Below, in pieces: positions 1,224 through 29,519 of a stretch of 32,878 bases of DNA; positions within the stretch are counted from its first letter, which is position 1, and each line of letters opens with the position of its first letter. Under the pieces are notes generated by a model that saw only the letters and a list, made by a program, of their open reading frames with translations, made no database searches and was not told the DNA's origin. The DNA is from a virus: positions 1-32,878 of the IMG/VR virus record IMGVR_UViG_3300049846_000684; one strand, written 5' to 3'. A program made the position numbers and the translations under genes.

Positions 1224-1294
1224 GCGACATCATCGAGCGGATGGAGCGGGTGATCGAGAGAATGGCGAGGCTGCGCCGAAGGGGTGAGACATGA
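1220..1294 (+). CDS. 24-residue basic amphipathic peptide (possible leader for the helicase gene)
   Basis: GTG at 1220 overlaps the preceding stop (GTGA), and the TGA at 1292-1294 overlaps the helicase ATG (ATGA). The predicted peptide MSDIIERMERVIERMARLRR plus RGET is amphipathic and helical. It may be a real micro-protein, or simply a translated bridge that delivers ribosomes to the helicase start. Evidence is positional only. Confidence 0.4.
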   Translation: MSDIIERMERVIERMARLRRRGET

Positions 1295-2679: not shown

Positions 2680-2680
2680 T

Positions 2681-11961: not shown

Positions 11962-13468
11962 CGCCGAGGCCCTCCGACGCAAGCTGCGCCTCAATCTCCT
12001 GCGGCTTCATGCCCTGCGCAGCCAGCTCCTCGGCGCGACGCTCAGCCTTTGCTGTGGCGTGCGCGGTGCCGAACGTGGCCATCGACGTGCCCGCAGGAAC
12101 GGTTGTCCCGTCGGACAGAACGATGTCCTGCGCCGACCGCTGGTTGCCTCGATTGATGACCTTGAACTCCGCCGCTGCGGATGCACGGTCCTCGGACCGA
12201 CGCAAGATGGCCGCGCGGCGTGCGATGTCCGCCGCGAGCGCCTCCGGTGTGGCGGCATCCGGATTCGCGATGAAGTCGGCGCCGAGAGCTCGACGATCCG
12301 CGTCCGACATGCTGCCTTGCCCGGAGTTTGCGGCGGCAATCGACTTGTTCTGGATCCCGACGTACTGGCGACGAAGCTCGGCAAGGTCTGACTCTGCCCC
12401 AACAAACCTTCCCGCCGCGCCGACCACGCGACCCGTCAAGCCCGTCTGCGCTTGCACCTCACCGGGGAGCGCCTTGGCCCGGAACGATGCAAGCTTGTTG
12501 GCGAGTTGCTCCATCTGCCCCGCCGTCTCACCGGCAGTCGTCGACTTGATGACGAGGTCGGTCACCTCGCGGTTGATGTTCTCGGGGAGCGGGCCGGTCT
12601 CCTTCTCGCGGATCTTGTCCTCGCGCTCGAGCGTCTTCAGCGCAAGTTCCTTCTCGTCGAGCTCGAGCCGCTTCGCATCGCGTTTGATGTTGGCGTAGAT
12701 CTGCGCGAGGCTGGCTTTTTGTTTTCGCTCCTCGAAACGCGCCTCAATGGCCTTGATCTGTGCCTCTTGCTGCGCCCTCGCCGCGTCAGCCTTCGCCTTC
12801 TCGACGTCGGCGCCGAGCGTGGCGCCCTTCAGCCTGCCCTCGAACGCCTGCGGGGCATTCTGGCCGATCCACATCGCCACCATGCCCTGCGTCGCCACAG
12901 GGTTCTGGTCGATGCGCTTGATCATGTTCGCCATGGCGTCGGCCTGACGCTTGTCGCCGGCCTCCTCGAACGCCAAACGGCGCGCGTCGAGCTCGCCTTT
13001 CGCGAGGTCCACCGCGCCGTTGTCCAGCAGGTTGTACACCGTCGTCATGGCGTCGGCGTAGTCCTGCTTCTGCGCAGCCGTCGCCATCTCAAAGGTCTTC
13101 TTCATCGGCTCGGCAAGGTCGGGGCGCAGCGCAGCGATCGCCATCGCGATGTTCGGATCGCGCGTCTCGGCGAACTTCTGCTGGAGCGCCGCGATCTGCG
13201 CATCCGCCTGTGCCTTCGCCTGTGCCGCCTGCTCTGCGGCAAGCCGAGCCTGTTCCTTCTCGGCGAGCATGCGCGCGCGGTCGGCCTGCGCCTGATCCCA
13301 AAGCACGCCGGCCCGCTGGTCCTCGACGCGAGCACGGGCGCGCTCCTCACCGAGCACCTGCGCGTTGAGCAGACCCGTGCCGATCTGCTGGCCCTGAGCG
13401 AACGCCTGCACCGGCGTCGGCTGCTGGACTTGCAGGAACGGGCTCAGGAAGTCGGTGGGCGCCGGCAT
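11954..13468 (-). CDS. DNA ejection/transfer protein (P22 gp20/gp16-like)
   Basis: A 504-residue protein. It is mostly charged alpha helix, with coiled-coil predicted at about 36-105 (QADRARMLAEKEQARLAAEQ) and 215-295 (EAQIKAIEARFEERKQKASL; ELDEKELALKTLEREDKIRE). A C-terminal domain contains GLTGRVVGAAGRFVGAESDL and GSMSDADRRALGADF. The N-terminus FLSPFLQVQQPTPVQAFAQG is typical of phage ejection proteins stored in the capsid and released with the DNA. The start overlaps the upstream stop (TGATG) of the gp7-like gene, placing it in the usual P22 order of ejection genes. Confidence 0.75.
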   Translation of the reverse strand: MPAPTDFLSPFLQVQQPTPVQAFAQGQQIGTGLLNAQVLGEERARARVEDQRAGVLWDQAQADRARMLAEKEQARLAAEQAAQAKAQADAQIAALQQKFAETRDPNIAMAIAALRPDLAEPMKKTFEMATAAQKQDYADAMTTVYNLLDNGAVDLAKGELDARRLAFEEAGDKRQADAMANMIKRIDQNPVATQGMVAMWIGQNAPQAFEGRLKGATLGADVEKAKADAARAQQEAQIKAIEARFEERKQKASLAQIYANIKRDAKRLELDEKELALKTLEREDKIREKETGPLPENINREVTDLVIKSTTAGETAGQMEQLANKLASFRAKALPGEVQAQTGLTGRVVGAAGRFVGAESDLAELRRQYVGIQNKSIAAANSGQGSMSDADRRALGADFIANPDAATPEALAADIARRAAILRRSEDRASAAAEFKVINRGNQRSAQDIVLSDGTTVPAGTSMATFGTAHATAKAERRAEELAAQGMKPQEIEAQLASEGLGDG

Positions 13469-14259
13469 CAGTAGGCCCCCTGCGGCGGCACCATGCTCAC
13501 GTCACCGTAGCCGTACGACGCGGGACCGCTCGACGCTGCGGGCTGCTGGCCCATGCCGGCGAACGCTGTGGGCGGGGCGCCCATGGCGAGCTGCGCGCCG
13601 CCACCGATCAGGCTTGCGCCGGTGTTGAGGAGTTGCTGTCGACCCTGCGTCAGCAGCGCCGACTGGCCGAGCGTGCTTCCCGCGCGGATGGCGCCGATGT
13701 TCTGCTGGATACCAGCCTGCTGCTGGCCGATGCCAAGCGCGCCCTGCCCGACCTGCGACGCCGCGCCGTAGCCCATGCTCGAGAGGCCGCCGAGACGCGC
13801 ATACTGCGCCTCGATGATCTGCGACAGAAGCGCGGGGCGAAGCTGGGCAAGCGCCGCCTGCGTGTTGCCGCCGCGCAGTCCGCCCGTCGCCGAGGCGTTG
13901 GCAAGCATGGCTTCTTCGCTCTGCTGAAGCATCGCTTGGAACTGCGGGCTTTGCTCGAGCTGCGAGATCGCCGCCTGCTGTGCCTCGGGGCCGTCGAGCC
14001 CCGCAAGCGCACGCTGCTGGGCGAGGGCGTCACCACCGGCAGCCTGGTAGCCGCCGAGAGCCCGCGCCTGCTTGGCCTGCGCAAGGATCATCTCCTTGCG
14101 CGCAGCCTCCTCGCCGCTGACCTGCTGGCCGGCAGCCTTGCCCACGGCCTCGCGCTCGTCCTTGTTGACGTTGTCCCACAGCCACTTGGCGCCGCCGGCA
14201 GCGCCCGCCGTCGTCAGCGCGCCGATGCCGATCGACAGACCGATGCCCACACCACTCAT
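13468..14259 (-). CDS. P22 gp7-like DNA transfer/ejection protein
   Basis: A 263-residue protein. A Gly-rich hydrophobic N-terminus (residues 3-28) is followed by a helical region. Residues 121-152 (NASATGGLRGGNTQAALAQL, RPALLSQIIEAQY) are the hallmark of gp7-type DNA transfer proteins. The C-terminus is Gln/Gly/Ala-rich. P22 gp7 is ejected first and helps build the periplasmic conduit. ATG 14259 overlaps the upstream stop (ATGA). It lies directly upstream of two further ejection genes. Confidence 0.85.
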   Translation of the reverse strand: MSGVGIGLSIGIGALTTAGAAGGAKWLWDNVNKDEREAVGKAAGQQVSGEEAARKEMILAQAKQARALGGYQAAGGDALAQQRALAGLDGPEAQQAAISQLEQSPQFQAMLQQSEEAMLANASATGGLRGGNTQAALAQLRPALLSQIIEAQYARLGGLSSMGYGAASQVGQGALGIGQQQAGIQQNIGAIRAGSTLGQSALLTQGRQQLLNTGASLIGGGAQLAMGAPPTAFAGMGQQPAASSGPASYGYGDVSMVPPQGAY

Positions 14260-15107
14260 TTGCCGCCTCCGAGATTGACCGCGACAGCCTGACGGTAGTC
14301 AGCGGTGATTTCCTCGCCGTACCCACCACCCAAGCAACCGGCGATGGGACGTGCGGCGACCAGAACAATAGCACCGTCCGCGCGCCGCACAAACTCCGCG
14401 TTCGGGTGCCGTGAATGGTTCGTGAACCGCCCCAGAGGGGTCCGCTGGCCCGTTGGCAGCCTTCCCAGCCCGATGACCTCGCCGGCCTCATGGGGCGCCG
14501 ACGAGAACACGCCGCGCCCCTCGATGGGGGATGGCCGCACGCTCACCTTCTGGCAGCCGTAGGGCAGCGGGGCCATATCGGTGTCGATCTCGGACAGGGC
14601 GCGCACGGCGTCGACGGAAAGGCCCATCTCCGCGCACGCCGCCACGAAGTCGACGCGGTCGAGCTCGTGCGCCGCCGTCTCCCGCCGCAGCCGTTCCGCG
14701 TGGTGGTGCTCGTAGGCGGGCGAGTCGTCGAACATCTCGGCCTCAATGGCCTCAACGTCACGCAGGTCGGTGTTGACGACGTTGAGCCACGCCACGTCCT
14801 CGCGGACGAGGGCTACCTTTCGGCCCGGTGGCGCAGTGAACATCTGCGGCGCCTCAAGGTGGACGAGGTGATCGTCGCCCATGAGCGTGAGCCGACCGCG
14901 CAGCATGATGTTGAGGTGCTCTCGACGGTGCGAGCGCCCGACGACGAGCGCAACCTTGCCCGGATCACGGGACGCGGCAAGCTGGACCTCGCGGATGTAG
15001 ATGCCCGGTGCGAAGTGGTGGAACACCGGCATGGGGTCTTGCGGCAGGTCGATGCCCACCGCCTCGACGATGTCTGCGAACGACGGGAGCGCAACGGCGT
15101 CCGTCAT
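14256..15107 (-). CDS. Cupin-SET domain fusion protein
   Basis: A 283-residue protein; ATG 15107 overlaps the upstream stop (ATGA). Residues 29-113 look like a cupin: PGIYIREVQL, GRSHRREHLNIMLRGRLTLM with His60 and His64, then FTAPPGRKVALV. Residues 187-272 have the SET-domain signature: GRGVF (197-201), RFTNHSRHPNAEF (227-239, with the NHSxxPN core) and GEEITADY (264-271). A helical linker joins them. SET proteins usually methylate lysines using SAM; the NHS and EExxxDY motifs that form the SAM/lysine site are intact. The cupin may bind metal or a small molecule. It follows methyltransferase and glycosyltransferase genes and precedes the ejection genes. Modification of a virion or host protein is an inference. 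Confidence 0.78.
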   Translation of the reverse strand: MTDAVALPSFADIVEAVGIDLPQDPMPVFHHFAPGIYIREVQLAASRDPGKVALVVGRSHRREHLNIMLRGRLTLMGDDHLVHLEAPQMFTAPPGRKVALVREDVAWLNVVNTDLRDVEAIEAEMFDDSPAYEHHHAERLRRETAAHELDRVDFVAACAEMGLSVDAVRALSEIDTDMAPLPYGCQKVSVRPSPIEGRGVFSSAPHEAGEVIGLGRLPTGQRTPLGRFTNHSRHPNAEFVRRADGAIVLVAARPIAGCLGGGYGEEITADYRQAVAVNLGGGK

Positions 15108-15712
15108 GCCTTCCGCAACACCACGACGATGTCGCTGACCATGTTCCATCGGCCCTGTGCGCGGTCGGCCTGCACCTCGGGGTGCCGCGAGCCTTCGACG
15201 GGGTCGGTGATCTTGGTGCAGCTCACGCCGATGAAGTCGCAGTCCGGCCCGTAGTGGTCCAGTCCGTTCGCCTCGCGCCATGCGCGGTTGAGGTAGTTGA
15301 ACGTCTCCTCGGGGATGAATCGCCGGTGTGTGGGGTCTTGAAACGCGCGCCGGCTCTGGCAGTAGGGCACCACGATCTCCACCTGCGCACCGGGCTTGAG
15401 CACGCGCCAGAGCTCGTCGAAGAACGCGAAGAACAGGTCTTTGCGCCCCGGTCCGCCGACGTGGTGGTGCTTGTTCTTCTTGTCGACGTAGCACATGGGG
15501 ATGTGCTCGACGAAGTGCGACGAACGCGCCTCGTCGACGCTGGCGTCCGCCCACGGCCACGGGAACGAGAGCAGGTCCACCCGCTCATCGCCGGTGTAGA
15601 GGTCGACGCCGCGAAAGCCCGCCTTTGGGTGCTGGCCCGCGCCGAGGTCGAGGCGCAAGGTGCGCGTGTCGATGACCTCCACGGTCGGCTTGGTATCGGT
15701 TCCGTCTGGCAT
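15104..15712 (-). CDS. Class I SAM-dependent methyltransferase
   Basis: A 202-residue Rossmann-fold methyltransferase. Motif I LDLGAGQHP (21-29) binds SAM, with acidic Asp37 after GVDLY. FPWPWADASVDEARSSHFVEHI (50-71) is the typical motif II/III region, and ELWRVLKPGAQVEIVVP is the post-motif strand. The start ATG overlaps the preceding stop (TGATG). Such enzymes in phage genomes often methylate sugars or proteins and commonly sit beside glycosyltransferases, as here. The acceptor is unknown. Confidence 0.88.
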   Translation of the reverse strand: MPDGTDTKPTVEVIDTRTLRLDLGAGQHPKAGFRGVDLYTGDERVDLLSFPWPWADASVDEARSSHFVEHIPMCYVDKKNKHHHVGGPGRKDLFFAFFDELWRVLKPGAQVEIVVPYCQSRRAFQDPTHRRFIPEETFNYLNRAWREANGLDHYGPDCDFIGVSCTKITDPVEGSRHPEVQADRAQGRWNMVSDIVVVLRKA

Positions 15713-16461
15713 CAGTAGAGTTCTCCGGTGTTGACGTCGAGGTGCCCCACGCGGACCGAGAAGTCCACGGCGAACCGCTTACCGGCCCGCACAGCACGCT
15801 CGCAGAAGTAGAGGTCCTGCGTGTACGCCGCCGCCGAGCCGTTGGGCATGACGTCGGCGACGGTGACAAACCAGGGGCCGGGGATGCTGCGGAACAGGTC
15901 CATGCGCCACAGCGCGCAGCCCATCGCGATGCCGCACACCGGCATCGTGCGCCCCTGCATGAGCGCCGTGCGCACTTCGTCGGGGCTGCGAGGGCGGAAC
16001 GAGAGCGCGCCCGTGCGGGCGTACTCGTCGGGGTCGCCGTAGGCCATCGGCGCGTTGATCTCGCCCTTGGTGAAGTAGATGCCCGACACCGCATCGAACC
16101 CCTTGATGGATTCGATCAGCCGGATGTGCGCGTCGGCGGGGACGATGTTGTCGTCCTCGACGGTCATCACATATTCCCACTTCGACAGATTCGGGTCGGC
16201 GAGGATGTTCTCGATCATCCGGTTGTACGCCTTGCCCACCTCGTCGCCAGCGCACATCAAGAACGCGCGCTGCGAGTTCATCGGCGCGATCATGTTCTGC
16301 CACGCCGACACCGTGCGGTGATGGATCATCCCGCGCGTGGGTGCGATGACGACGGTACGGGCAGGCTCGTATGTCTCGCCCTTGAGCAGAAGGACGCGCT
16401 CAAACCCCTTGCCGTCCTTGGCAATCTGCGCTGCGGCATCGTCAACGGGTACCATGTTCAT
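15712..16461 (-). CDS. GT-A fold glycosyltransferase-like protein
   Basis: A 249-residue protein with a GT2/GT-A-like core. RTVVIAPTRGMI (35-46) is the nucleotide-sugar-binding N-terminus. YVMTVEDDNIVP (97-108) carries the acidic metal-binding motif EDD (102-104). A later TQDLYFCERAVRAGKRFAVD acts as the catalytic-base region, followed by VGHLD. There are no membrane segments. Related proteins are common in phage structural operons and are thought to modify virion proteins or DNA. It starts just after the long fibre gene and overlaps the methyltransferase gene by 1 bp (TGATG), so the two are probably made together. Confidence 0.82.
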   Translation of the reverse strand: MNMVPVDDAAAQIAKDGKGFERVLLLKGETYEPARTVVIAPTRGMIHHRTVSAWQNMIAPMNSQRAFLMCAGDEVGKAYNRMIENILADPNLSKWEYVMTVEDDNIVPADAHIRLIESIKGFDAVSGIYFTKGEINAPMAYGDPDEYARTGALSFRPRSPDEVRTALMQGRTMPVCGIAMGCALWRMDLFRSIPGPWFVTVADVMPNGSAAAYTQDLYFCERAVRAGKRFAVDFSVRVGHLDVNTGELY

Positions 16462-16468
16462 AGGTGTC

Positions 16469-19288
16469 TTATGCCGTGGCCGATTGCAGGATCACAAGAG
16501 GCCACTGATTTTGCGACGTTCCACCGGTGCCGGTGATGACGGACGAGTGAATCGACGCGGGCGCGACCCACTCGAACTGCGTCGGCGTCGTCGACACCGT
16601 CGAGACGATGCCATTCCACGGCATGCCCTGAATCGGCCCCGACGTGTTGGAGAAGCCAAAGGCGCCGGTGAACTGGCTCACGCTGTAGCGCCACGCCGAG
16701 CCCATGCCGAACAGCGCCGCCGACGAAGACCGGAAGTTGTACGCGTGCGCGATGAAGTACTCACCTGCGCTGAGCGACGTGGCCGACGACGTGGCATTGA
16801 GGCGGATCTCGTGCAGGCCCTGAATCGTCGCCGAGACGTTGCCGTTGATGCTGCTGCTGTTCGTCGTCGACGCGGACCACGCGCCCGGCCACCACGTCAG
16901 CGTTTGCGCGGTGACGCTGTTCTGCGAGTGCGCGGCGTTCCATGCAAACGACGTCACGAGCGACAGCGTCGATGCGTTGCGTGAGTAGATGCCGATCACG
17001 TGGCGGTGCGACCCGCTGCCGGTGCCTGCCGCTGTCGCCGCCACCGACACGATCGCCTTGACGTCGTTGAATGTGACGCCCTGACCGATGACGAGCGGCG
17101 CCACGTACCACGACAACGTCGACGACGAACCGCCAGCGACGGTGGTTGATGCGCCGGTGTACATGCTCGACGACGCCCACGGCCATGGCATGTCAGGGAA
17201 CATGCTCACGGTGGCGCCGCCGCCCGCTGCATTCACCGACGCCGTCACCGTCGAGCCGTTCAGCCCGAACGACACGCCGTTGCTGTTGCTGAACACAAGA
17301 TTGGAGAGGTTCTGCGACGTCGTGCCGGCGCTGATGTTGACGTTCGTGAGCCCGCCGCCGCCAGATGGGACGCTGATTACGACGCTGCCGTTGCTCACGC
17401 CGACGGACGCGACGCCTGCGCCAGCAAACGACAGCGCCGTAGCGTTCAGCGTGCCCGAGCTGCTTTGCGTGGTGTTGCTGACGGCGTGCGCGTTCAGGGC
17501 TTGGATGCTCTGCGACGTGATGCCGTTGTGTGACGCGGTGATCGTCGAGCCATTTAGGCCGAATGACACGCCGTTGGAGTTGCTGAACGTCACATTCGTC
17601 AGGACGTTCGACGTCGTTCCCGCGCTGAACGAGACGCCACCTGCCGCCCCGATGATCGTGACCCGCGACGCAGCAGAACCACCGGACACGGTGATGTTGG
17701 CTCCACCGGCAATCCTGAGCTGCGTTCCGCTGTAGAGGGACTCGCCGGCCGTGTTGCCAGCGAGCACCATGTTTGTCGACAGCGTCGCATAAAGACGAAC
17801 GCTGTTGTTCGTCTCCATGTGCCACGAAAATCCGTTCGCATTCTCGAATGCCAGCGTTCCGCTCGTCTGCGTCGACCCCGCGCCCGCGCTGCCCTGCACC
17901 ACGACAGCGCGGATGATATTTTGCGTCTGTTCACTCTGGCTTGTGATGCCGTTGTGCGACGCAAAAATCCCCTGCGTGCCAGTGGAGAAGCTGATTCCGT
18001 TGCTGTTGGCGAACGTGGCCGTCTGGAACGTGAAAGACCCGTTCGCGGCGCTGATCGCCTGGTTGCTCTGCGACGTCAGACCATTGTGCGACGCCGTCAC
18101 GGTGGACGCATTGAGCCCAAACGTGATGCCGTTGGCATTGCCGAACGTCACTGCGCTCAGGTTGTTCGACGTCGTGCCAGCCGACAGGTTGATCGCGGTG
18201 AGAGACGTCGCCACCGACGCGAAAACGCCCTGCGTGCCCGTCGAGAATGACACACCGTTGCTGTTGGCGAGCGAAAGCGTCTGGAACGTCGACGAACCAT
18301 TCGCCGCGCTGACAGCTTGGTTGCTCTGCGACGTCAGGCCGTTGTGCGAAGCGGTGATCGTCGACGCGTTGAGGCCGAACGTGATCCCGTTGCTGTTGGC
18401 GAAGGTGACGGCGCTGAGGTTGTTGCTCGTCGTGCCTGCGGACAGGTTGATGTTGGTCAGCCCGCCGCCGCCCGACGGGACCGAGATCACCACGCTGCCG
18501 TTGCTGACGCCGACAGACGCCACGCCGGCACCAGCGAAGGACAGCGCGGTCGCGTTCAGCGTGCCAGAGCTCGACTGCGTCGTGTTGCTGACGGCATGCG
18601 CGTTGAGGGCTTGGTTGCTCTGCGACGTGATCGCGTTGTGGGACGCGAAAATGCCCTGCGTTCCCGTCGAGAAGCTGATCCCGTTGCTGTTCGCGAATGT
18701 CGCCGTCTGGAACGTGAACGAGCCATTCGCCGCCGACAGGGCTTGGTTGCTCTGCGAGGTCAAGCCGTTGTGTGACGCCGTGATCTGCGACGCCGCCGTG
18801 TCGAGTCCGAAGCTGACGCCGTTGACGTCGCGGAACGACACGCGGTTGATGGTGTCGGCCTGCGTGCCTGCCGACACGCCGAGGCCCGCCGAGATGACCA
18901 CGGACCCGTTGCTGACGCCGACGGACGCCCCGCCGCCGCCGCGCACGACGATCGACGACGCGTTGAACGTTCCCGTCGACGACTGCGTGGTGTTGCCGGT
19001 GGCAAACGCCGTGATCTGCTGGTTGCTCTGGCTCGTCAGGCCGTTGTGCGACGCCGTCACCGTCGCGGAGCCAGCCATGCCGAACGTGATCCCGTTGGCG
19101 TTGCTCAGGATGACGCTGCCGGACGTCGCCAGCTGCGTTCCCGCCGAGATTGCGACGCCACCACCGCCACCCGTGATCGACGAGACGTTGTTGACCTCGT
19201 CGATCAGCTTCTCAAGCTGCTTTGTCGCCTCCGGATCGTTCTTCGCGATCTTGGCGAGCTGGTCACGGGTCAGGCGGAGGCGCGCCAT
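16469..19288 (-). CDS. Long repeat-containing tail fibre (tail-needle position)
   Basis: A 939-residue protein; ATG 19288 overlaps the gp10-like stop (TGATG) and was chosen over an upstream in-frame start at 19405. After a short helical N-terminus (MARLRLTRDQLAKIAKNDPE, ATKQLEKLIDEVNNV) it consists of many imperfect repeats built from SAGTTSNNLSAVTFANSNG, ITFGLNASTITASHNGLTSQ and SFSTGTQGIFAS modules. A non-repetitive C-terminal domain of about 230 residues follows (from MFPDMPWPWASSSMYTG to LVILQSATA). Similar repeat fibres are frequent in uncultured tailed phages. In P22 the gene after gp10 is the tail needle gp26; this fibre sits in that slot, with the N-terminal helix a possible attachment point. 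The C-terminal domain probably binds the receptor. Confidence 0.82.
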   Translation of the reverse strand: MARLRLTRDQLAKIAKNDPEATKQLEKLIDEVNNVSSITGGGGGVAISAGTQLATSGSVILSNANGITFGMAGSATVTASHNGLTSQSNQQITAFATGNTTQSSTGTFNASSIVVRGGGGASVGVSNGSVVISAGLGVSAGTQADTINRVSFRDVNGVSFGLDTAASQITASHNGLTSQSNQALSAANGSFTFQTATFANSNGISFSTGTQGIFASHNAITSQSNQALNAHAVSNTTQSSSGTLNATALSFAGAGVASVGVSNGSVVISVPSGGGGLTNINLSAGTTSNNLSAVTFANSNGITFGLNASTITASHNGLTSQSNQAVSAANGSSTFQTLSLANSNGVSFSTGTQGVFASVATSLTAINLSAGTTSNNLSAVTFGNANGITFGLNASTVTASHNGLTSQSNQAISAANGSFTFQTATFANSNGISFSTGTQGIFASHNGITSQSEQTQNIIRAVVVQGSAGAGSTQTSGTLAFENANGFSWHMETNNSVRLYATLSTNMVLAGNTAGESLYSGTQLRIAGGANITVSGGSAASRVTIIGAAGGVSFSAGTTSNVLTNVTFSNSNGVSFGLNGSTITASHNGITSQSIQALNAHAVSNTTQSSSGTLNATALSFAGAGVASVGVSNGSVVISVPSGGGGLTNVNISAGTTSQNLSNLVFSNSNGVSFGLNGSTVTASVNAAGGGATVSMFPDMPWPWASSSMYTGASTTVAGGSSSTLSWYVAPLVIGQGVTFNDVKAIVSVAATAAGTGSGSHRHVIGIYSRNASTLSLVTSFAWNAAHSQNSVTAQTLTWWPGAWSASTTNSSSINGNVSATIQGLHEIRLNATSSATSLSAGEYFIAHAYNFRSSSAALFGMGSAWRYSVSQFTGAFGFSNTSGPIQGMPWNGIVSTVSTTPTQFEWVAPASIHSSVITGTGGTSQNQWPLVILQSATA
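17230..19180 (-). repeat. Internal repeats of the tail fibre gene
   Basis: Units of about 75-100 codons recur. The clearest pair is about 17331-17515 and 18441-18625, which encode the same string of about 50 residues (NAHAVSNTTQSSSGTLNATA... to ...VISVPSGGGGLTN) yet differ at more than twenty bases, mostly third positions. A second pair (about 17940-18070 and 18630-18740) encodes near-identical GSFTFQTATFANSNGISFST segments. Confidence 0.85.
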
Positions 19289-20697
19289 CAGAATGCCAGC
19301 GGCGTGACCGCCGCCTCCAGACGCGCGAACGAGACGTGCGACGTCGAATCGCCCTGGAAACGCTGCATCCGACGGTTGCGGAACGCGCCCTGCCGGAACC
19401 AGCACAGCCGCTTGCGCCGATCACCCGTCCCGCCGACGGAGATCGAGAAGTCGCGCGACCACGTCACGCCGTCGAGGCTGTAGCTCGTCGAGATCGTGGG
19501 CTCCGTGCCGTATCCGTGGACGCTCGAGCCCGGAAGCGCGACGAGTTCAAGCCGATCGAGCACCGCGCCGCGCCCTTCGGCGTAGAGCATCGTCGTCGCA
19601 AACTCCCATCGCACTTCATCGCCCCAGTGCTGGCCCGTGGTGGCGTCGAGGTAGCCAAAAAACGCCTCGTCGGTGGGGTCGCCGACGTTCCATCGGTCGT
19701 AGCACCACGTCATGTGCTGGATGCGGTACTGCGAGAAGCCAGACAGACCCGACGTCAGGACGAACCAGACGGCTTGTCCAAGGGCCTGCGACGCGGTGGC
19801 GTCGTAGACGAGGGTGCGATCAGGAAGGTGGACGTAGAGATGCTGGTGCGCGCGGTCATTGCGTGCTTCCAGCACGGTGTCCGCGAGCTCGGCTTCGGTG
19901 AAGTCCTCGAGGATGCGGTCGATCTCGACGGTGCTGACCTTCTGCGTGGCCCCGCCACTGCCCACATAGACGCCCGGTGCCTCGTTCACGCCACCGCCAA
20001 GGAACGCAACGGCCTCCATGAACACGCACGCTGCATGGGTGCCGACGGCGCCCTTCGGAATCTGCGCGCCTTCAATGCGGGCGAAGGGGAAGCCGGTGCC
20101 GCCGACGTTGTCGAACACCTCGATCGTGTTGCGTCCGACGGCGTACACCTCGTTCCGCAGGCGCAGCAGGCCCACGATCGGGTCGGGCGACGCCTCAGCA
20201 GCGCCGTACTTGAGCGGGTTGATGGCAAACGGGTTGGTGAGGTCGCCGACGACGAGGTATTCGCCGTCCGTCGTCATCCAGTAGCCGTCGATCCAGAGCA
20301 CGTCGAGCACGGCGCCGAGGTCGGGATCGGTCACCTCGGTCAGCGTGCTCCCGTCGTAGAGGTAGAGGCGGTCACCGGCTGCGATGTAGAGGTAGTCGAA
20401 GCCGTAGTCCATCGTCGCCGTGCCGCCCGCCGCGACGGTGCCGAGAACCAGCACGTTGCCGTCGACGTCGATGCTCACAAAGTCGGTGCCGTGGATGGCG
20501 TACAGCGTGCCGTTCCAGTTGATCTGCGCGCGCGTGGCGCCACTGCCGTTGCCCAGCGCGTAGGTGCCTTCGGCGGGACGCAGGTAGCCGTTGCTCGCTC
20601 CGTTGGGGAGCGGCACGGGGACCATGTTCACCGGGTAGCTGATGCGGAAATCAGGCCCGTTGTCGACGTAGATTCCGCTCAGGATGGGGACCTGCAA
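19288..20697 (-). CDS. P22 gp10-like packaged-DNA stabilisation / tail accessory protein
   Basis: A 469-residue protein. Markers of the gp10 family are the N-terminal DNGPDFRISYPVNMVPVPLP and SNGYLRPAEGTYAL, and the C-terminal RRKRLCWFRQGAFRNRRMQR followed by FQGDSTSHVSFARLEA. P22 gp10 is about 472 residues, so length is normal. It forms part of the tail plug under the portal with gp4 and closes the capsid after packaging. It lies downstream of the gp4-like gene as in P22, with one fibre gene in between. Confidence 0.9.
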   Translation of the reverse strand: MQVPILSGIYVDNGPDFRISYPVNMVPVPLPNGASNGYLRPAEGTYALGNGSGATRAQINWNGTLYAIHGTDFVSIDVDGNVLVLGTVAAGGTATMDYGFDYLYIAAGDRLYLYDGSTLTEVTDPDLGAVLDVLWIDGYWMTTDGEYLVVGDLTNPFAINPLKYGAAEASPDPIVGLLRLRNEVYAVGRNTIEVFDNVGGTGFPFARIEGAQIPKGAVGTHAACVFMEAVAFLGGGVNEAPGVYVGSGGATQKVSTVEIDRILEDFTEAELADTVLEARNDRAHQHLYVHLPDRTLVYDATASQALGQAVWFVLTSGLSGFSQYRIQHMTWCYDRWNVGDPTDEAFFGYLDATTGQHWGDEVRWEFATTMLYAEGRGAVLDRLELVALPGSSVHGYGTEPTISTSYSLDGVTWSRDFSISVGGTGDRRKRLCWFRQGAFRNRRMQRFQGDSTSHVSFARLEAAVTPLAF

Positions 20698-21639: not shown

Positions 21640-22116
21640 TCACTCGAAAGTTAGTTCGCCCTCGTCGCCGACGAGAAGCTGCGTGGATTCCTCGAAGAAC
21701 GGATCGGAGTTGCCTTCCCACGGCTTGTTGCCCGCGCCGACAGGGAGCGTGTTGGGCAGGCGACGTAGCGGCGGCGACGTCGTGCGCGCAAGGCAGGTGT
21801 TGTATGCGTTCTTCGCCGTGGCCCGCGTTTCGGCCATGACGCTGCGGCCGTACGACGGGGCGAGGCGGATCGCGAGGTTGCAGATCACGGCCTCGTTAGC
21901 CCACGCAGGGACACTCGTCTGCGCGTCCAGGTCGATCGTCGTCGGCGATGTGATGGGGTAGCCGACATGGATGCCACGACCGTCCCACTCGGCCATCATG
22001 GCGTCGAGGCGGTCGCCGGCCGCAGCGATCTGGTCGGGCTGCAAGTCAAACTCCGACGACGCAAGGCCGAGCTCGGAGAACGCAGCCATGACGAACGCGC
22101 GCTTGGTGTAGCCCAT
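21640..22116 (-). CDS. P22 gp4-like tail accessory (head-completion) protein
   Basis: A 158-residue protein, close to P22 gp4 (166 residues). Matching signatures are MGYTKRAFVMAAFSELGLAS, EFDLQPDQIAAAGDRLDAMM, AEWDGRGIHVGYPI and VPAWANEAVICNLAIRLAPS. gp4 binds the portal ring after DNA packaging and recruits gp10; a muramidase activity has been described for the P22 protein. Start ATG 22116 follows AAGGGCTGACG, two bases after the preceding stop. Confidence 0.92.
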   Translation of the reverse strand: MGYTKRAFVMAAFSELGLASSEFDLQPDQIAAAGDRLDAMMAEWDGRGIHVGYPITSPTTIDLDAQTSVPAWANEAVICNLAIRLAPSYGRSVMAETRATAKNAYNTCLARTTSPPLRRLPNTLPVGAGNKPWEGNSDPFFEESTQLLVGDEGELTFE

Positions 22117-23213: not shown

Positions 23214-24482
23214 TCAGGTCTGCGAGAACATGATGCCGCCGCAGTGCTCGGGCAGCGGGACACCCACGCCGTAGAGCGTGTCGACGCGGACCTTCTGCAT
23301 GCCGGTGTTGATGTCGTAGCCCTTCATCAGCACGAGCTCGAAGCCGGTTTCCGTCGTGGAGCGCATGATCTCGACGCCCTGACCGGACGGCGCCTCGATG
23401 CGGCCCGGGTAGATCTCGACGGCGTCCTTGACGAAGAACGGGTTGACCGGGCCGGTGACCGTGTTGAGGAACACGATCGCGGCGGTGCCCGACTGCGAGG
23501 ACACGACGACGTTGCCGTACGCCTTCTCGGCGAGGCTGGTGCCCTGCGAGTTGATGATCGGGGGGCTGATCACGAGGGTCGTCGAGCTCGGCACCGAGAT
23601 GACCTTGAAGGTCTTCAGCTGGCCGGTGCTCTGCTTGGTGACGCGGTGGCAGCTGAACACGTTCGCGATGGTGAACGAGTCACCCGCCGCGACGTTGGTC
23701 GTGCTCGAGATGGTGATCGTCTGCACGCGGTTGTCGACGTTGGCGCCGTTGCTGTCGACCGAGGCCGGCAGGTGGTAGTTGCCGCTGCCGCCAGCGGTGT
23801 AGGTCGTCGACGCGGTGAGCGAGCCACCACCAGCAGCGGCGGTCTTGTTGATCGCGTAGTCAAGCTTGAACGTCGAGAACGACGCGAGGTCGCCGACGTA
23901 CGCACGACGGAGCGCCTCGGAGCTGATCGAGTTGTCGAGGCTGCGCGCGGTGCCGACGAGGTTGGACGCGGCGCTGTTGTAGTCGCGGCTCGAGAGCACG
24001 AGGCGACGGTCGAGAGCGGGCACACCCTGCTCGTTCATGATGGCATCGCACTGCGCGGCGTCGTCGAAGCCGGACGCGGCGCCGGAGCGCTTGACGAACA
24101 GCGTGCCACGGGTCACGGCGGCATTCAGGACGTCGTAGTTGATGTCGCTGGCGAGCTTCTGCGACATCGCGCGGACGAGGCGCTCTTCCTGGAGGGCGTC
24201 ACGCAGCTCGGTGTCGCTCATCTGGAAGGGCGCGTGCTTGCGGGTGTTGATGGCAGCCGGCGACGCCATCTGCGTGTAGGCGCCGAAGTTCGACGTCGCG
24301 TCGGAGCCGTTGAAGCTGACGCCGATGTACGGGTTCGGCCTCCAGAAGACGTCGTTCGCACGGGCCATCCGCACCTGATCGGTGGTGACGATGGACGCGA
24401 GACCGCTGGCGACGAGCTGGTCATCGAAGCCCTTCAGGAGCTTCTCGAAGAAAACTTCAACAGACTTGTTGAACGAGGGCAT
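23214..24482 (-). CDS. P22 gp5-like major coat protein
   Basis: A 422-residue HK97-fold coat protein of the P22 gp5 family (430 residues in P22). Markers include SDTELRDALQEERLVRAMSQ, the inserted beta domain with GANVDNRVQTITISS (residues 246-260), and GDSFTI...TFKVISV with ISPPI. AYGNV and the C-terminal TLYGVGVPLPEHCGGIMFSQ also match. The P22-type I-domain insertion seems present (about 218-335). Start ATG 24482 has AAAGG seven bases upstream. It follows the scaffold gene by 3 bp, as in P22. Confidence 0.93.
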   Translation of the reverse strand: MPSFNKSVEVFFEKLLKGFDDQLVASGLASIVTTDQVRMARANDVFWRPNPYIGVSFNGSDATSNFGAYTQMASPAAINTRKHAPFQMSDTELRDALQEERLVRAMSQKLASDINYDVLNAAVTRGTLFVKRSGAASGFDDAAQCDAIMNEQGVPALDRRLVLSSRDYNSAASNLVGTARSLDNSISSEALRRAYVGDLASFSTFKLDYAINKTAAAGGGSLTASTTYTAGGSGNYHLPASVDSNGANVDNRVQTITISSTTNVAAGDSFTIANVFSCHRVTKQSTGQLKTFKVISVPSSTTLVISPPIINSQGTSLAEKAYGNVVVSSQSGTAAIVFLNTVTGPVNPFFVKDAVEIYPGRIEAPSGQGVEIMRSTTETGFELVLMKGYDINTGMQKVRVDTLYGVGVPLPEHCGGIMFSQT

Positions 24483-24485
24483 GGT

Positions 24486-25418
24486 TCAGCCTTTCTTTGC
24501 GCCGTCGTGCGCGCGCTTGATCCGGTGGTATTCGGTGTAGTCGCCGGTTTCGCGGGCACGCTTCAGGGCGCGTTCGAGGGATGCGGACGACGAGGATTCG
24601 GCGCCGCCGGTGATCTTCTTCTCAGCCTTCGCCTTGGGGGGTTCCTTGCTCATGACCTTGATGCTTCCTTCCAGTCGGGCGAGTGCTGCGGTGAATCGGG
24701 CAGGGCTCTTGATGGCGGCGAGCTCTTTCAGCTTCTCGGGGTTGCGGTGCAGGGCGAGGACGACGAGCGGTGCGTTGTCGAGGGCCTCCATCAAAAGGCT
24801 CTGCTGCACCTGCGAGAACTCGCGGGCCACCTCGATCTCCGCGTCCTCGTAGTCGGGGGCCTGCTGAAGTACAGCGGCCCGCTTCTGCGCGAACGTGGCC
24901 TTGGTGGCCTCCCACTCCTTCGCCTGCTGCTCCTGTGTGGCCTTCAGCTTCTGCGCGTGGTCATCGACCTTGCGCTTGGCTTCCATCCAGCGGACGAGCT
25001 CGGCTTTGAGCCGGGCCTCGTCGTAGTCGCAGCCGCTCAGGGTGGGTTCCGGAGGCAGCACGGGTGCCGTCTCCTGCGGTGCCGCCTGTGCGGCGAGCCG
25101 CTCCTCGAGCTCGCGGATTTTCCGCGCCTGCTCTCGCCGCTCTTGCCGGGCCAGCGCCCACGCTCGGGCTGCCTTGTCCGGTGGAGGGGGCGGATCCTCC
25201 TCGCCGAGCGTCACCGTCAGGGCTGCGGGCTTCTCGTCGGGCTTCGGCTCGCTCGGCTTCTCGCTGTCGTCGGGCTGGCCTGCGTCGTCTGGCTTTGCCT
25301 CTTCGGGCGCTGCCTCTTCTGCGGGCTTTTCTGTGACGTCCTCGGTCTGCTCTGCGGGCTGTTCGCCCTCGGCCTGCACGTCTGCCGGTTCGGTAGCCTC
25401 GGCTGCCTCGATTGCCAT
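24486..25418 (-). CDS. Scaffolding protein (P22 gp8-like)
   Basis: A 310-residue protein, near P22 gp8 (303 residues). The acidic, Pro/Glu-rich N-terminal third looks disordered. Long helices occupy the middle (LARQERREQARKIRELEERL; AELVRWMEAKRKVDDHAQKL; IEVAREFSQVQQSLLMEAL). The C-terminus has a short basic helical hairpin (SLERALKRARETGDYTEYHR, IKRAHDGAKKG), the type of element that binds coat protein. It sits directly upstream of the coat gene. Start ATG 25418 follows AAGGGA. It should be absent from mature particles. Confidence 0.88.
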   Translation of the reverse strand: MAIEAAEATEPADVQAEGEQPAEQTEDVTEKPAEEAAPEEAKPDDAGQPDDSEKPSEPKPDEKPAALTVTLGEEDPPPPPDKAARAWALARQERREQARKIRELEERLAAQAAPQETAPVLPPEPTLSGCDYDEARLKAELVRWMEAKRKVDDHAQKLKATQEQQAKEWEATKATFAQKRAAVLQQAPDYEDAEIEVAREFSQVQQSLLMEALDNAPLVVLALHRNPEKLKELAAIKSPARFTAALARLEGSIKVMSKEPPKAKAEKKITGGAESSSSASLERALKRARETGDYTEYHRIKRAHDGAKKG

Positions 25419-25505: not shown

Positions 25506-26180
25506 CTATATCGCGTCGTAGACGGCGCGGATGCTGGCGATGGGCACCACGCTGGCCCACACCTCGTATCGGTAGAGAACGAGCCGTGGGCGCGGCTGGT
25601 TGATGGCTTGGCGTCCGATGTCGCCGGTGATGCCAACGGCTGGCGCACCAACGGATGATGCTTGCGATCCGTCGACGTTGATGATCACGTTCGCGCCGTC
25701 GTACTGCACGATCGCGGTGACCTTGTTCCCGGGCGCGATGACCTTCGGAAGCTGCGGCGTGCCGCCGTAGGCGTAGAGCACACCGGCAGACGCCGAGTTT
25801 TCGAGCTCGCTGACGACATCCCAGTCGTATGCGGTCGTCACGACGACACCCATCCGCACAGCCATCGTGTACGACGTTCCCGCCGCGATGCCCGTCGATG
25901 GTAGTCCGCTGTAGTGCATGATGTTGAACAGCGAGCCGGCGTCGACGGTGAGCTTGGTGGCGTCGACGGACGACGAGCCTGCCGTGCCACCACCGTAGCT
26001 GTAGGTACGCGTCCATGTTCCGCCGAGGCTGCCCGTGTTCGCCAGCGTCGCGGGGTCAGACGCTGGCGTGTAGTTGCTCGGGATCATCTGGATAAGCGGC
26101 GTCGGTAGCCCGCCACGTCGGCGAGTGCTCGACCAGCCCTCGCGCCAGTCGGTGACGATCGGCGAGCGGTACGGTTTCAC
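25506..26180 (-). CDS. Lectin-like beta-sandwich protein inserted between portal and scaffold
   Basis: A 224-residue protein; GTG 26180 overlaps the portal stop (GTGA). After a basic N-terminus (MKPYRSPIVTDWREGWSSTR) it is beta-rich, with NTGSLGGTWTRTYSYGGG, SSVDATKLTVDAGS, YTMAVRMGVVVTTAYDWDVV and VIINVDGSQASSV, ending VLYRYEVWASVV. The pattern suggests a concanavalin A/LamG-like jelly roll. P22 has no gene here. It may be a head-surface decoration or an accessory lectin, but the family is inferred from general character only. Confidence 0.58.
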   Translation of the reverse strand: MKPYRSPIVTDWREGWSSTRRRGGLPTPLIQMIPSNYTPASDPATLANTGSLGGTWTRTYSYGGGTAGSSSVDATKLTVDAGSLFNIMHYSGLPSTGIAAGTSYTMAVRMGVVVTTAYDWDVVSELENSASAGVLYAYGGTPQLPKVIAPGNKVTAIVQYDGANVIINVDGSQASSVGAPAVGITGDIGRQAINQPRPRLVLYRYEVWASVVPIASIRAVYDAI

Positions 26181-28270
26181 CGCGTCGGCACCGCGACGAC
26201 AACTTGCTGCTTCGTCTCGGCGTCCACCTTGGCGATCGTGGCAAGCGTGCTGGCCTCGGTCTGCTTGATCTTGGCCTGCGTGAGTTGCGTATCTGCGAGC
26301 GTGCGCATCGTGTCGGCCTTGGCCTTCTCGGCGAGATTGGCCTCCTTCTGCGCCATGGCAAGAAGCGTCTGCGTCTGCGGGTCAGGCGGCATCGCGCCCT
26401 TGGCCTGCTGCTCCTGCATCAACTCCTGCTGCTCCTGCTCCGTCGGCTTGATCACGCCTTGGCGGACGAGCTGACGACGGAAAAAGTCCTGAATGTCGGC
26501 GAGGCCCTCGCCTTCCATATTCGCCAGCGCCGCAGCCGTGATCACCTGCCGCGTAGCAACGTCGTCTTGCGGGATGATGGCGAGCATGCCCGTCAGTGCG
26601 CGCACCGTCGCGGCACGCTTCGTCACCGTCGAGGGCCCAACGTCGACGACGACGTCGAGGTCCTCTTCGGCGATGTTGTTGCGCCCACCCTTGAGCGGCA
26701 CGCCTTCTTCGTCGAGGCCGGGAGCGCCAACGACGACAGACGCGCGAGTGCCGTCGGCGGCGACGACCTTCAACCTGCGCCCCTTCGTCACGTAGACGTC
26801 GCGCGCCATGGACTTCCAGATCTCGCCCACGCACTTCATGCCCTGCTTGAAGTTGTCGAGGTAGATCGCGGTCAGCCGGTCCATGCCCTGCTGCAACATC
26901 TCGACGGCCTTGCCGCTGATGTTGGCGACCACCTTTTCCTGGTCCTGCGCGCTGCCGAGGATGTCCTTCATGTCCTGCGACACGAACTGAAGCAAGCCGC
27001 CGAGCGCGGGCGGGATGGCGGGCGCCTTGGTGTAGCCGAGCGGCCCACCGGCAGCCATGGACCCATCGCTGTTCATGAGCGGGTTCACGCGCAGATAGGC
27101 ATGGTTGGCGATGTTGTCGTCGGCCCACTCCCGCTGAAAGCCGTCGATCTGCTCAGGCGCGAAAATGGGCTTCTCGACGGGCGACATTGCCGAGATCTCG
27201 GCGAGCTTGCTTGTCAACATGTTGGCGATGCGCTGCGCGTCCTTGGCGAGCCTGACATGTCCCTGCCATCGCTCCTTGTTGTCGATGTAGACGCGCTTAC
27301 CGTAGACAGGCGCAATCGGGATGCGCTTGCCGGCGATGATCCCGCAGTCCTCGAGGACGGCGCGTCCGCTCATGATGTACTTGTGGACGCGCTTGACGTG
27401 GTCAACGCCGCGATCCACCTCGACGGCGCCCTCGAGCTTCAATCGCTCACGCAACGTCGGGCCACGCTCGTCCTCGCTCTCGTCCTCGTCGACGTAGTCG
27501 AGCTCCTCGTCGGTCTTCTCGATCTCCTCGCCGAGCGGCGTCTTGAAGCAGGTGTAGGGCTCCTTGACCTTCTCGACGACGTAGTATTCGGCGACGTAGA
27601 CGACGGCGGGCGTGTACCAGTCCTGCGACAGGTTATCGAGGACGTCCTTGGGCCAACTCGCGGGGTCGTCGCCCCATTCGTCGAGGTACGCGTCGTGCGT
27701 CATCGGCGTGACCAAGAACGCAAACCGCGCATCGCTCTTGTCTTTGCGCTTGCTGTTGAGGTCGAAAAAGACGCTGGTGTCGGCGTCGGTGATCGGCTCA
27801 ATGCGGATGCGCAGGTCGTCGGCGTCTTCCTCGCTCTCGTCGTCCTCGTGCTCGACGCGCAGGCGGATGGCACCGAATCCGCCTGACACGGCTTCGGTGA
27901 AAGCGTTGTCGTAGGCCTCGTCGGCGTTGCTGTCCTGCTCGTCGGAGCGGAATAGCCCGTCGGCCACGTCGGCGACGTCGCTGCGCGGAGTGCCGTCGCG
28001 CGGCAAAAAGTCGACGGTGACGCGGTTGGCGCGGTGGTCGCCCTCGAGGCGAGCGATGGCGCCGGCGATCTTGTTGAGCTCAAAGCGCGGCTTGTTCGCG
28101 AACTGCGCCTCGAGCGGACCCTCCCACTGCGCGCCAGGGACGCTCACGAAGCGCCGATCCTCGCGGCTCTGGAGTCGGTCGTCCCGCGTGGCCTCCGAGA
28201 TGCGCCCGAAACGCTGAAGCGCCTCACGATGGATGCGGAGGAGTCGGTCTGCCTTGGATTCACGCGCCAT
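26177..28270 (-). CDS. P22 gp1-like portal protein
   Basis: A 697-residue portal protein; P22 gp1 is 725. Family features are RFELNKIAGAIARLEGDHRA and NRVTVDFLPRDG near residues 62-92, DEAYDNAFTEAVSGGFGAIR, RIEPITDADTSVFFDLNSKR, RLAKDAQRIANMLTSKLAEI, and the long C-terminal helix rich in Gln/Lys (KANLAEKAKADTMRTL-like), which corresponds to the P22 barrel. The portal ring is the DNA entry and exit channel and binds the terminase and the gp4 adaptor. It starts 10 bp downstream of the terminase stop. Confidence 0.93.
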   Translation of the reverse strand: MARESKADRLLRIHREALQRFGRISEATRDDRLQSREDRRFVSVPGAQWEGPLEAQFANKPRFELNKIAGAIARLEGDHRANRVTVDFLPRDGTPRSDVADVADGLFRSDEQDSNADEAYDNAFTEAVSGGFGAIRLRVEHEDDESEEDADDLRIRIEPITDADTSVFFDLNSKRKDKSDARFAFLVTPMTHDAYLDEWGDDPASWPKDVLDNLSQDWYTPAVVYVAEYYVVEKVKEPYTCFKTPLGEEIEKTDEELDYVDEDESEDERGPTLRERLKLEGAVEVDRGVDHVKRVHKYIMSGRAVLEDCGIIAGKRIPIAPVYGKRVYIDNKERWQGHVRLAKDAQRIANMLTSKLAEISAMSPVEKPIFAPEQIDGFQREWADDNIANHAYLRVNPLMNSDGSMAAGGPLGYTKAPAIPPALGGLLQFVSQDMKDILGSAQDQEKVVANISGKAVEMLQQGMDRLTAIYLDNFKQGMKCVGEIWKSMARDVYVTKGRRLKVVAADGTRASVVVGAPGLDEEGVPLKGGRNNIAEEDLDVVVDVGPSTVTKRAATVRALTGMLAIIPQDDVATRQVITAAALANMEGEGLADIQDFFRRQLVRQGVIKPTEQEQQELMQEQQAKGAMPPDPQTQTLLAMAQKEANLAEKAKADTMRTLADTQLTQAKIKQTEASTLATIAKVDAETKQQVVVAVPTR

Positions 28271-28280
28271 GGCGCACAGC

Positions 28281-29519
28281 CTAGCGCGCCTTGCTCCAGC
28301 GCGAAACCTGCGGAAGCGGCGCCGCCGGCTTCACCTTGGCCCCCGACAGACGCCGAGCGGCCTCGCAGGCGTAGCGTAGCGCGTCCAGGCAATGATCCGC
28401 CTGTCCCTTGCGCAGATGCGGCGTCGGCCGGCCGGTGCTCGGGTCTGCCGCGTACTGGTAGCCAGCGAGCTCGTCCGCCATGTGCCGGCAGCGCGGATGC
28501 ACGACGATGTCGTAGCCTTGCAGCCACTTGATGCCCTCGACGACGGACGCCGGCCCCTTCACGCTGGCGACGACCTTCGGCAGCCCGTTCTTGCGCAGGT
28601 GCGAGATGCTTTCAGGGCGTGCGCTGTCTGCCGTGATGGGCCACAGCTCGGCATCGGGCACCTGCAAGGCAAACTGCGGCAGGTCGACCGTTTCCACGCC
28701 GAGCGCCCACGCCTCGTGATCGACGTAGAGCGTGCGCCCGACGGCGTGGCACCGCACGATGGCCGCAGGGTCGACGGAGAAGCCGAAGTCGAGGCCGTAC
28801 CAATGCACGGCGTCGGCGGGCGTCTCGAAGTCCTGCACCCTCCAGTTGCGGAAGACGCGAAACTCGCTGGCCGCAGCGTAGCCGCCAAGCCAGACGTGCG
28901 CGTATTTGTCGGCGTCACGCGAGCGATCCCATTCCATTTCTCGGCGCAGCACGTCGGGAAACCATGGGTTATCGCTGTAGTTCACATGGACGACGACGGC
29001 GTCGGGCGGCTTGTCGGGCCCGCGCAGCAGTCGGTCTACGGGATCGCTCTCGTCCATCGGGTTCCACGAGAACCACAGCTCGCTCCCGTCCTTGCGAATC
29101 GTCGGACGCAGCATGTCGAGCGACTTCTGGCTGAGCGTCTGCGCCTCCTCCACCCATGCGCGATCGAAGCCCTCGAGCGACTTGATCGACGACGCCGTGT
29201 GGTCCTGCATGCCGACGAAGATGATCTTGCCGGTGCCGCCGCGCCGCAAAATCTGCGACTGCTGGATCTCGAACAAGTCGGCGACGCCGAGCTCGGCGAT
29301 CTTGCTCTCAAGCAGCCGCTTGACCGACTCGCGCAGCGTTCCCTGGACCTCGCGCACACACACGCTCGAGGTGTTCGGGTCTGCGACGTGCGCCTCGATC
29401 ATGAGCTCGGCGAACGCCCACGATTTGCCCGAGCCGCGTCCGCCGAATGCGCCCTTGTAGCGAGCCGGCTGCAACAGCGGCAGCATCCATGCCGGCGTCG
29501 GCAGCCGCAGTGTGCTCAT
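28281..29519 (-). CDS. terL: Terminase large subunit (PBSX/Sf6-like family)
   Basis: A 412-residue packaging motor. ATPase domain: Walker A GGRGSGKS (26-33), Walker B AWVEEA (121-126) and coupling motif SWNP (151-154). RNase H-like nuclease: first acidic Asp244 (YGLDFGFSVDP), then ITADSARPE, then a C-terminal GQADHCLDALRYA. All three nuclease acidic positions are present, so cleavage should be active. VNYSDNPWFPDVLRREME is typical of PBSX/Sf6 large terminases. ATG 29519 overlaps the small-subunit stop (ATGA). Sequence alone does not settle headful versus site-specific packaging, but Sf6-like enzymes are usually headful. Confidence 0.96.
   Translation of the reverse strand: MSTLRLPTPAWMLPLLQPARYKGAFGGRGSGKSWAFAELMIEAHVADPNTSSVCVREVQGTLRESVKRLLESKIAELGVADLFEIQQSQILRRGGTGKIIFVGMQDHTASSIKSLEGFDRAWVEEAQTLSQKSLDMLRPTIRKDGSELWFSWNPMDESDPVDRLLRGPDKPPDAVVVHVNYSDNPWFPDVLRREMEWDRSRDADKYAHVWLGGYAAASEFRVFRNWRVQDFETPADAVHWYGLDFGFSVDPAAIVRCHAVGRTLYVDHEAWALGVETVDLPQFALQVPDAELWPITADSARPESISHLRKNGLPKVVASVKGPASVVEGIKWLQGYDIVVHPRCRHMADELAGYQYAADPSTGRPTPHLRKGQADHCLDALRYACEAARRLSGAKVKPAAPLPQVSRWSKAR

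Follow-up and report, generated by a model that had tools for sequence, protein, structure and literature searches.

A cupin barrel joined to a reduced SET methyltransferase-like domain, encoded next to an ejection-protein gene in P22-like podoviruses

In the phages P22 and T7, gene 14 and gene 13, respectively, lie immediately upstream of P22 gene 7 and T7 gene 14, whose products, according to the available sections of three reports, are ejected and help to build a conduit across the cell envelope (PMC8954989, PMC11784390, PMC10883804). The available portion of a cryo-EM study of the T7-like phage Peru-2 does not name a gene for this slot. The protein described here occupies the same slot in a P22-like podovirus and joins a cupin barrel to a SET methyltransferase-like domain; P22 gene 14 (DUF2824, PF11039) and T7 gene 13 (PF11090) belong to Pfam families other than those of the fusion. 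A full-length cupin-SET protein like ours is encoded by gene 30 of Rhodoferax phage P26218 (AKA60333.1), which is 41.8% identical, falls in PHROG 34170 and sits in the same place, between gp10-like and gp7-like genes. It is annotated as hypothetical, and PHROG 34170 lists no function. A homologous cupin without the SET half is found in other phage proteins (phrog_24280 and phrog_12032; VvAW1 gp04 and SnaP-R1 gp38), and VvAW1 gp04 and SnaP-R1 gp38 are, like the fusion, encoded directly upstream of the first ejection or internal virion protein. On the SET side, MLL1/KMT2A and vSET of PBCV-1 share with the phage domain both the fold and the signature GxG, RxxNHxxxPN and ExTxDY.

The window, meaning the whole stretch of DNA analysed, is a viral record 32,878 bases long and has a P22-like operon on the minus strand. 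The order of the operon is terminase large subunit (TerL), portal, scaffold, coat, Ad3, Hc3, a 978-aa protein, a glycosyltransferase-like protein, a methyltransferase-like protein, the fusion and a gp7-like protein, with unmatched ORFs interspersed. The neighbours of the fusion that matched a family are:

28281..29519, minus strand: terminase large subunit (phrog_3717, E 9.3e-60)
26177..28270, minus strand: portal protein (phrog_156, E 1.4e-132)
24486..25418, minus strand: head scaffolding protein (phrog_648, E 1.3e-34)
23214..24482, minus strand: major head protein (phrog_283, E 7.1e-66)
21640..22116, minus strand: head-tail adaptor Ad3, P22 gp4-like (phrog_637, E 1.5e-31)
19288..20697, minus strand: head closure Hc3, P22 gp10-like (phrog_578, E 1.4e-93)
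15712..16461, minus strand: glycosyltransferase-like gene (phrog_12406, E 5.1e-6; no Pfam match)
15104..15712, minus strand: class-I methyltransferase-like gene (phrog_6636 methyltransferase, E 2.3e-10; no Pfam match)
13468..14259, minus strand: gp7-like DNA-ejection protein (phrog_598, E 2.6e-20)

With TerL, portal, scaffold, coat, Ad3 and Hc3 upstream and the gp7-like gene downstream, all on one strand, the virion operon of a short-tailed phage named in the preliminary description is confirmed. The fusion overlaps both of its neighbours by ATGA, the methyltransferase-like gene on the upstream side and the gp7-like gene on the downstream side. Several other features of the window may be recorded. 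The methyltransferase-like and glycosyltransferase-like genes (15104-16461, minus strand) sit inside the virion operon just upstream of the fusion, and in one relative (locus L011) a similar methyltransferase gene also lies upstream of the fusion. The 978-aa ORF (16469-19405, minus strand), between Hc3 and the glycosyltransferase-like gene, matched nothing in PHROG or Pfam and is by its position a candidate tail fibre or needle. On the opposite strand, positions 1291-3577 (plus) hold a helicase followed by an N6/N4 DNA methylase, and a virion structural protein at 8151-9044 (minus) has a weak, below-cutoff match to concanavalin A-like lectins.

The fusion itself is organized as follows:

14256..15107, minus strand: cupin-SET fusion protein P0001 (283 aa, ATG start, TGA stop)
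14724..15044, minus strand: cupin domain, residues 22-128 (Foldseek to solved cupins; homology with the cupin-only proteins P0005-P0007)
14565..14723, minus strand: helical linker, residues 129-181 (DSSP on the model; least conserved part)
14274..14564, minus strand: SET domain without the SET-I insert, residues 182-278 (profile and structure comparison)
14505..14519, minus strand: SET GxGxF motif, residues 197-201 (GRGVF)
14400..14420, minus strand: SET NHSxxPN motif, residues 230-236 (NHSRHPN)
14295..14312, minus strand: SET ExTxDY motif, residues 266-271 (its Tyr equivalent to Set1 Y1054)

The reading frame first proposed for this protein is correct, and the three motifs ascribed to it are present, the last as GEEITADY at residues 264-271. 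Mean pairwise identity among relatives is 0.359 in the linker, compared with 0.58 in the cupin and 0.589 in the SET domain. In profile searches, Pfam SET matched residues 225-271 (E = 5e-6; 27.3 bits against a curated cutoff of 22.4) and PHROG 34170 matched residues 23-277 (E = 1e-61), that is, nearly the full length, which at the level of sequence excludes chance as the origin of the SET and family matches. The match to Pfam Cupin_2 was below cutoff (residues 59-97, E = 9e-4, 19.3 bits against 27.2). The cupin half alone matched phrog_24280, named "tail fiber adhesin", and phrog_12032, named "short tail fiber protein". Unlike the window protein, the P26218 protein taken alone falls below the Pfam SET cutoff (16.2 bits). 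NCBIfam returned no family for any of 8 proteins searched, and phmmer with P0001 against PDB sequences gave a best E of 0.73, with SET matches at 0.81-0.89; unlike this single-sequence search, profile searches did match solved SET domains. The metal-binding motif of cupins is HxH(x)3-4E, followed by a second His motif. Among 75 relatives, His is found at position 64 in 74 and at position 58 in 69, the window protein having Arg at 58, and the His of the second motif is absent from the columns scored as conserved in the alignment of these 75 relatives.

An AlphaFold2 model, built from 35 sequences (the window protein and 34 IMG/VR relatives), had a mean pLDDT of 93.4 and a pTM of 0.89. Foldseek matched this single chain both to the SET domain of MLL1 (E 3e-5) and to the cupins 3d82 and 2ozj (E 5e-5), and the model is thus predicted to contain the double-stranded beta-helix typical of cupins, as judged from 3d82, 2ozj and others. 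Among viral models, it matched a protein from an uncultured phage labelled "SET domain containing protein" and, over the cupin part, several other phage proteins. VIA-align superposed the SET half on MLL1 (6u9n) with Z 7.2 and rmsd 2.1 over 81 residues at 38% identity, and on vSET with Z 6.7 and rmsd 2.1 over 81/105 residues; because a Z near 7 is middling by the tool's own note, the SET assignment leans also on the sequence signature. A profile of the phage family matched the SET domains of MLL1/KMT2A and PBCV-1 vSET at E 4.9e-10 and 7.2e-7. By sequence and predicted structure, the protein is a cupin barrel joined to a cut-down SET methyltransferase-like domain. The cupin-SET fusion initially claimed has therefore held up, both SET profile similarity above cutoff and a SET fold having been found alongside the match to solved cupins.

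The preliminary description considered the fusion unusual. This view is not supported by the survey of such fusions, which shows the family to be common in environmental podoviruses: at least 577 relatives were confirmed among at least 599 candidate stretches of IMG/VR (the best 80 of which were kept), and the family already exists as PHROG 34170. An IMG/VR scan with the single sequence P0001 gave no matches. By tblastn, 36 of 50,697 phage records matched, 8 of them with one place covering at least 80% of the protein and the other 28 partially, over the cupin half; the full-length relatives fetched were P26218, zth2-2, ctfPj964, ct1fd225 and PH1. Among 84,980 bacterial and archaeal genomes, 10 of 16 stretches encode a relative, mostly on phage-sized contigs, with two on long Paraburkholderia contigs. 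Since relatives in these genomes are few and mostly on contigs of phage size, this is a phage family seldom present in prophages. The sequences, PHROG 34170 and the "SET domain containing protein" label on a relative in a viral model library are already known. Nevertheless, a paper on a cupin-SET phage protein was not found in searches of an open-access library, judged by titles and abstract openings, and the terms "cupin" and "SET domain" are absent from the P26218 and PBR31 papers. One "SET domain" match, in PMC10172136, was to "C2-set" and is unrelated. The family is apparently undescribed in the literature while widespread in phages.

What the phage SET half retains was read from an alignment of 141 distinct SET domains out of 145, with readable letters in 140. 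G197 and G199 were present in 140/140, N230 in 140/140, H231 in 139/140, R227 in 139/140, and E266 and Y271 in 140/140, where conservation around RTxxGRxxN, including part of NHSxxPN, is partly by construction as this was among the scan patterns; ExTxDY entered one scan only, where it was an alternative to a second pattern, and GxG is free of such bias. Pfam SET matched 35 of 35 SET-only pieces at E ≤ 0.01.

What it has lost is equally consistent. The family profile aligned with MLL1 in two pieces (profile positions 182-208 and 219-268), which are separated by 45 residues in MLL1 and by 10 in the phage profile (43 and 8 in a second comparison). The spacing from GxG to NH is 32 in 72 of 75 relatives, and the spans aligned by VIA are 93 residues in the phage protein against 124 in MLL1, and 87 against 103 in vSET. 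The missing segment is the SET-I insert, which forms one wall of the substrate groove, and the sequence comparison indicates that it is lost from the phage domain. Unlike MLL1 and vSET, the phage domain also lacks the aromatic residues of the lysine channel, and it carries an extra Gly/Cys-rich loop of 6 residues before the Tyr motif. In yeast Set1 these channel aromatics are Y967, Y993 and F1056, as given in the part of the report available (PMC3585878). Set1 sites were mapped onto the phage protein by spacing (G951 to G199, Y967 to 215, R1013 to R227, N1016 to N230, H1017 to H231, Y1052 to 269, Y1054 to Y271 and F1056 to 273). We take G951 to be the second G of GxG, and Y993 would presumably fall within SET-I. 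The equivalents of G951, R1013, N1016, H1017 and Y1054 are kept in the phage domain. Position 215 is Ala, Gly, Val, Ser or Ile, position 269 is Val, Ile, Ala or Leu, and position 273 is mostly Gln; Tyr, Phe or Trp occurs at none of the three in 141 SET rows. A shift of two columns changes little, since positions 213-217 together hold one aromatic letter, at 216. The conserved aromatics that remain are F201, Tyr/Phe228 and Y271.

With GxG, NH and Tyr kept and SET-I and the channel aromatics lost, the cofactor side appears functional, but the lysine side does not appear classical. SAM binding by the SET half is therefore plausible, judging from its residues. Found in a new setting, the protein belongs to the SET fold family but lacks two features expected of a SET lysine methyltransferase, the SET-I insert and the aromatic channel. 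The "hallmarks of SET lysine methyltransferases" credited to it earlier stand for the motifs and thus for the SAM and knot half, and fall for SET-I, which is absent, and for the channel aromatics, whose positions are non-aromatic in all 140 readable members.

One explanation is that the protein is nonetheless a usual SET-type protein-lysine methyltransferase acting on a virion protein, with the cupin, the linker or the Gly/Cys loop at 257-264 supplying the rest of its channel. The SET profile and fold and the retained GxG, N, H and Tyr speak for this, as does the activity in yeast of Set1 Y1052V, which matches the phage Val/Ile at 269. However, in the same partly available report the single changes Y967A and F1056A each give a null phenotype and Y993A a partly null one (PMC3585878), and the equivalents of Y967 and F1056 are never aromatic in the 140 readable domains. 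In addition, SET-I is missing and the coupled ejection protein has no conserved lysine: no column reached 35% Lys in 72 such proteins next to fusions or in 53 next to cupin-only genes, in loose alignments (mean column identity 11% and 9%) that give this search little power. Because no column reaches 35% Lys, a fixed lysine in the coupled protein is disfavoured, and we regard this explanation as unlikely. Classical lysine methylation by the fusion is not established; lysine methylation of a virion or host protein, raised in the preliminary description, may still occur.

The SET half is not a constant part of the protein. A scan aimed at the cupin alone still found SET in 6 of 80 loci (3 by pattern and 3 by reading the output), and a scan aimed at SET found it fused in 73 of 76, with two loci having separate SET and cupin genes (L299 and L301) and one cut by the contig end. 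In L299 and L301, it is the cupin and not the SET gene that stays adjacent to the ejection gene. By eye, cupin and SET are two overlapping genes beside a DnaB-like gene in L262, and in L259 a SET gene is followed by a 95-aa ORF resembling a cupin remnant and then by an ejection-like gene. The separate SET and cupin genes of L262 (7929-9082) and L299 (3941-5115) lie near replication-type genes, including an SSB-like ORF in L299 (by eye). On a tree of the cupin domain (92 rows, 103 columns, a quick method with many open forks), the SET label changes at least 4 times, 3 of these forced by well-supported branches, each change being a gain or a loss. PH1, which has SET, is sister to VvAW1, which does not, with support 99. 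Because cupin-only relatives keep an ejection-type downstream neighbour, the cupin is the constant half and SET an optional module.

This patchy presence, together with the loss of SET-I and the lysine-channel aromatics, would also fit a catalytically dead SET domain whose fold is kept for binding SAM or SAH, or for structure only. Dead folds usually do not keep the catalytic Tyr, whereas Tyr271 is invariant in 140/140 readable domains, and a dead domain thus seems improbable to us.

The cupin is coupled to the downstream gene, that of the first DNA-ejection protein. In 77 of 82 fusion loci the downstream ORF belonged to a single blastp cluster, whereas the 60 upstream ORFs identified were spread over 15 clusters, of which the largest had 19 members; neighbours came from a mechanical ORF finder, and some singletons are probably wrong frames. 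The "DNA ejection" family phrog_598 was matched by 61 of 72 non-redundant proteins encoded downstream of fusions (71 of 76 fusion neighbours plus that of the window, the short fragments L127, L065, L012, L082 and L279 having been dropped). Downstream of cupin-only genes, 24 of 53 proteins matched it (54 neighbours minus that of L262, where SET itself lies downstream). Among the same 53, other families of ejection or internal virion proteins were phrog_21132 (6), 805 (6), 4295 (4) and 418 (3), counts that may overlap, and some neighbours match tail-fibre or baseplate families instead. A 4-base overlap with the downstream gene was found in 77 of 159 fusion loci and in 44 of 74 cupin-only loci; among the other fusion junctions, a gap value of 2 occurred in 33 and of -12 in 25. 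Named phages with the same slot are P26218, ctfPj964, VvAW1, Vibrio phage 234P9 and SnaP-R1, the last of T7 type (Autographiviridae), in which the cupin gene is flanked by tail tubular B and the virion genes that follow. In zth2-2 (L003, 8858-9975), the fusion directly follows TerL in a different operon type, with short proteins sharing an STMLTG stretch downstream.

The names of phrog_24280 and phrog_12032, and a note in the P26218 record ("similar to putative tail fiber protein"), suggest another possibility, in which the cupin would belong to the virion as a short tail fibre or an adhesin, with SET as its surface domain. However, we found no basis for those PHROG names, and the predicted structure is compact, comprising a cupin and a SET domain; the neighbour that stays constant is an internal ejection protein, and near-invariant SET cofactor residues would be unneeded on a fibre, which makes this quite improbable. 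Phage proteins with the fold of an enzyme frequently target the host, but this gene sits in a virion operon and is closely linked to the ejection gene, which leaves a methyltransferase that alters a bacterial protein during infection very unlikely.

A second enzyme family appears near the cupin in a few loci. In three of Acinetobacter type, a GNAT gene directly precedes the cupin, which is followed by the ejection gene:

L101, 2775-3227: GNAT acetyltransferase gene (by Pfam)
L102, 3436-3894: GNAT acetyltransferase gene (by likeness)
L370, 4400-4855: GNAT acetyltransferase gene (by Pfam)

Such neighbours are few. The GNAT gene of zth2-2 lies further downstream of the fusion, and a GNAT-matching gene of SnaP-R1 is several genes away from the cupin. 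P22 gp14 was also considered as a GNAT, but this found no support: a sequence search gave just a weak glyoxalase match (E 0.008), and no match emerged when P22 gp14 was compared by profile with T7 gp13, or T7 gp13 with phage GNATs. The model of P22 gp14 had a mean pLDDT of 50.8.

We favor the interpretation that the fusion is an accessory factor for ejection proteins in P22-like podoviruses, carrying an optional SAM-binding and possibly methylating module, and consider the chances that it is right to be about even. Start and stop codons overlap at the junction with the first ejection protein, so that the cupin half would be produced together with that protein, and its most likely role is to bind, fold or load it. 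For the SET half, the intact GxG/NH/Tyr half-site makes binding of S-adenosylmethionine probable, and this half may methylate an ejection protein or another part of the virion through an acceptor site unlike the classical lysine channel. Against an accessory factor, gene order is not proof of interaction, and the "tail fiber adhesin" and "short tail fiber protein" names would make the cupin part of the virion. The position after TerL in zth2-2, the DnaB-like neighbour in L262, the lack of a conserved Lys column and the middling VIA Z also count against it.

A broader version of the accessory-factor interpretation is more doubtful, namely that this podovirus slot holds a cupin chaperone often accompanied by enzyme modules, either the reduced SET or an adjacent GNAT, and that SET modifies ejection proteins before they are packed. 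If it were true, the reduced SET would form a SET class of its own, its SAM half-site preserved and its acceptor site rebuilt, and the slot would encode a post-translational modification system of the phage ejectosome. Ejection proteins form the channel through which phage DNA crosses the envelope of the cell, and their loading into the head is poorly understood. In this regard, the cupin gene is a concrete gene in which to test loading or modification of ejection proteins, across very different podoviruses. In addition, the many viruses in which SET has been pared down to its cofactor half offer a natural test of which parts of the active site are required for which function.
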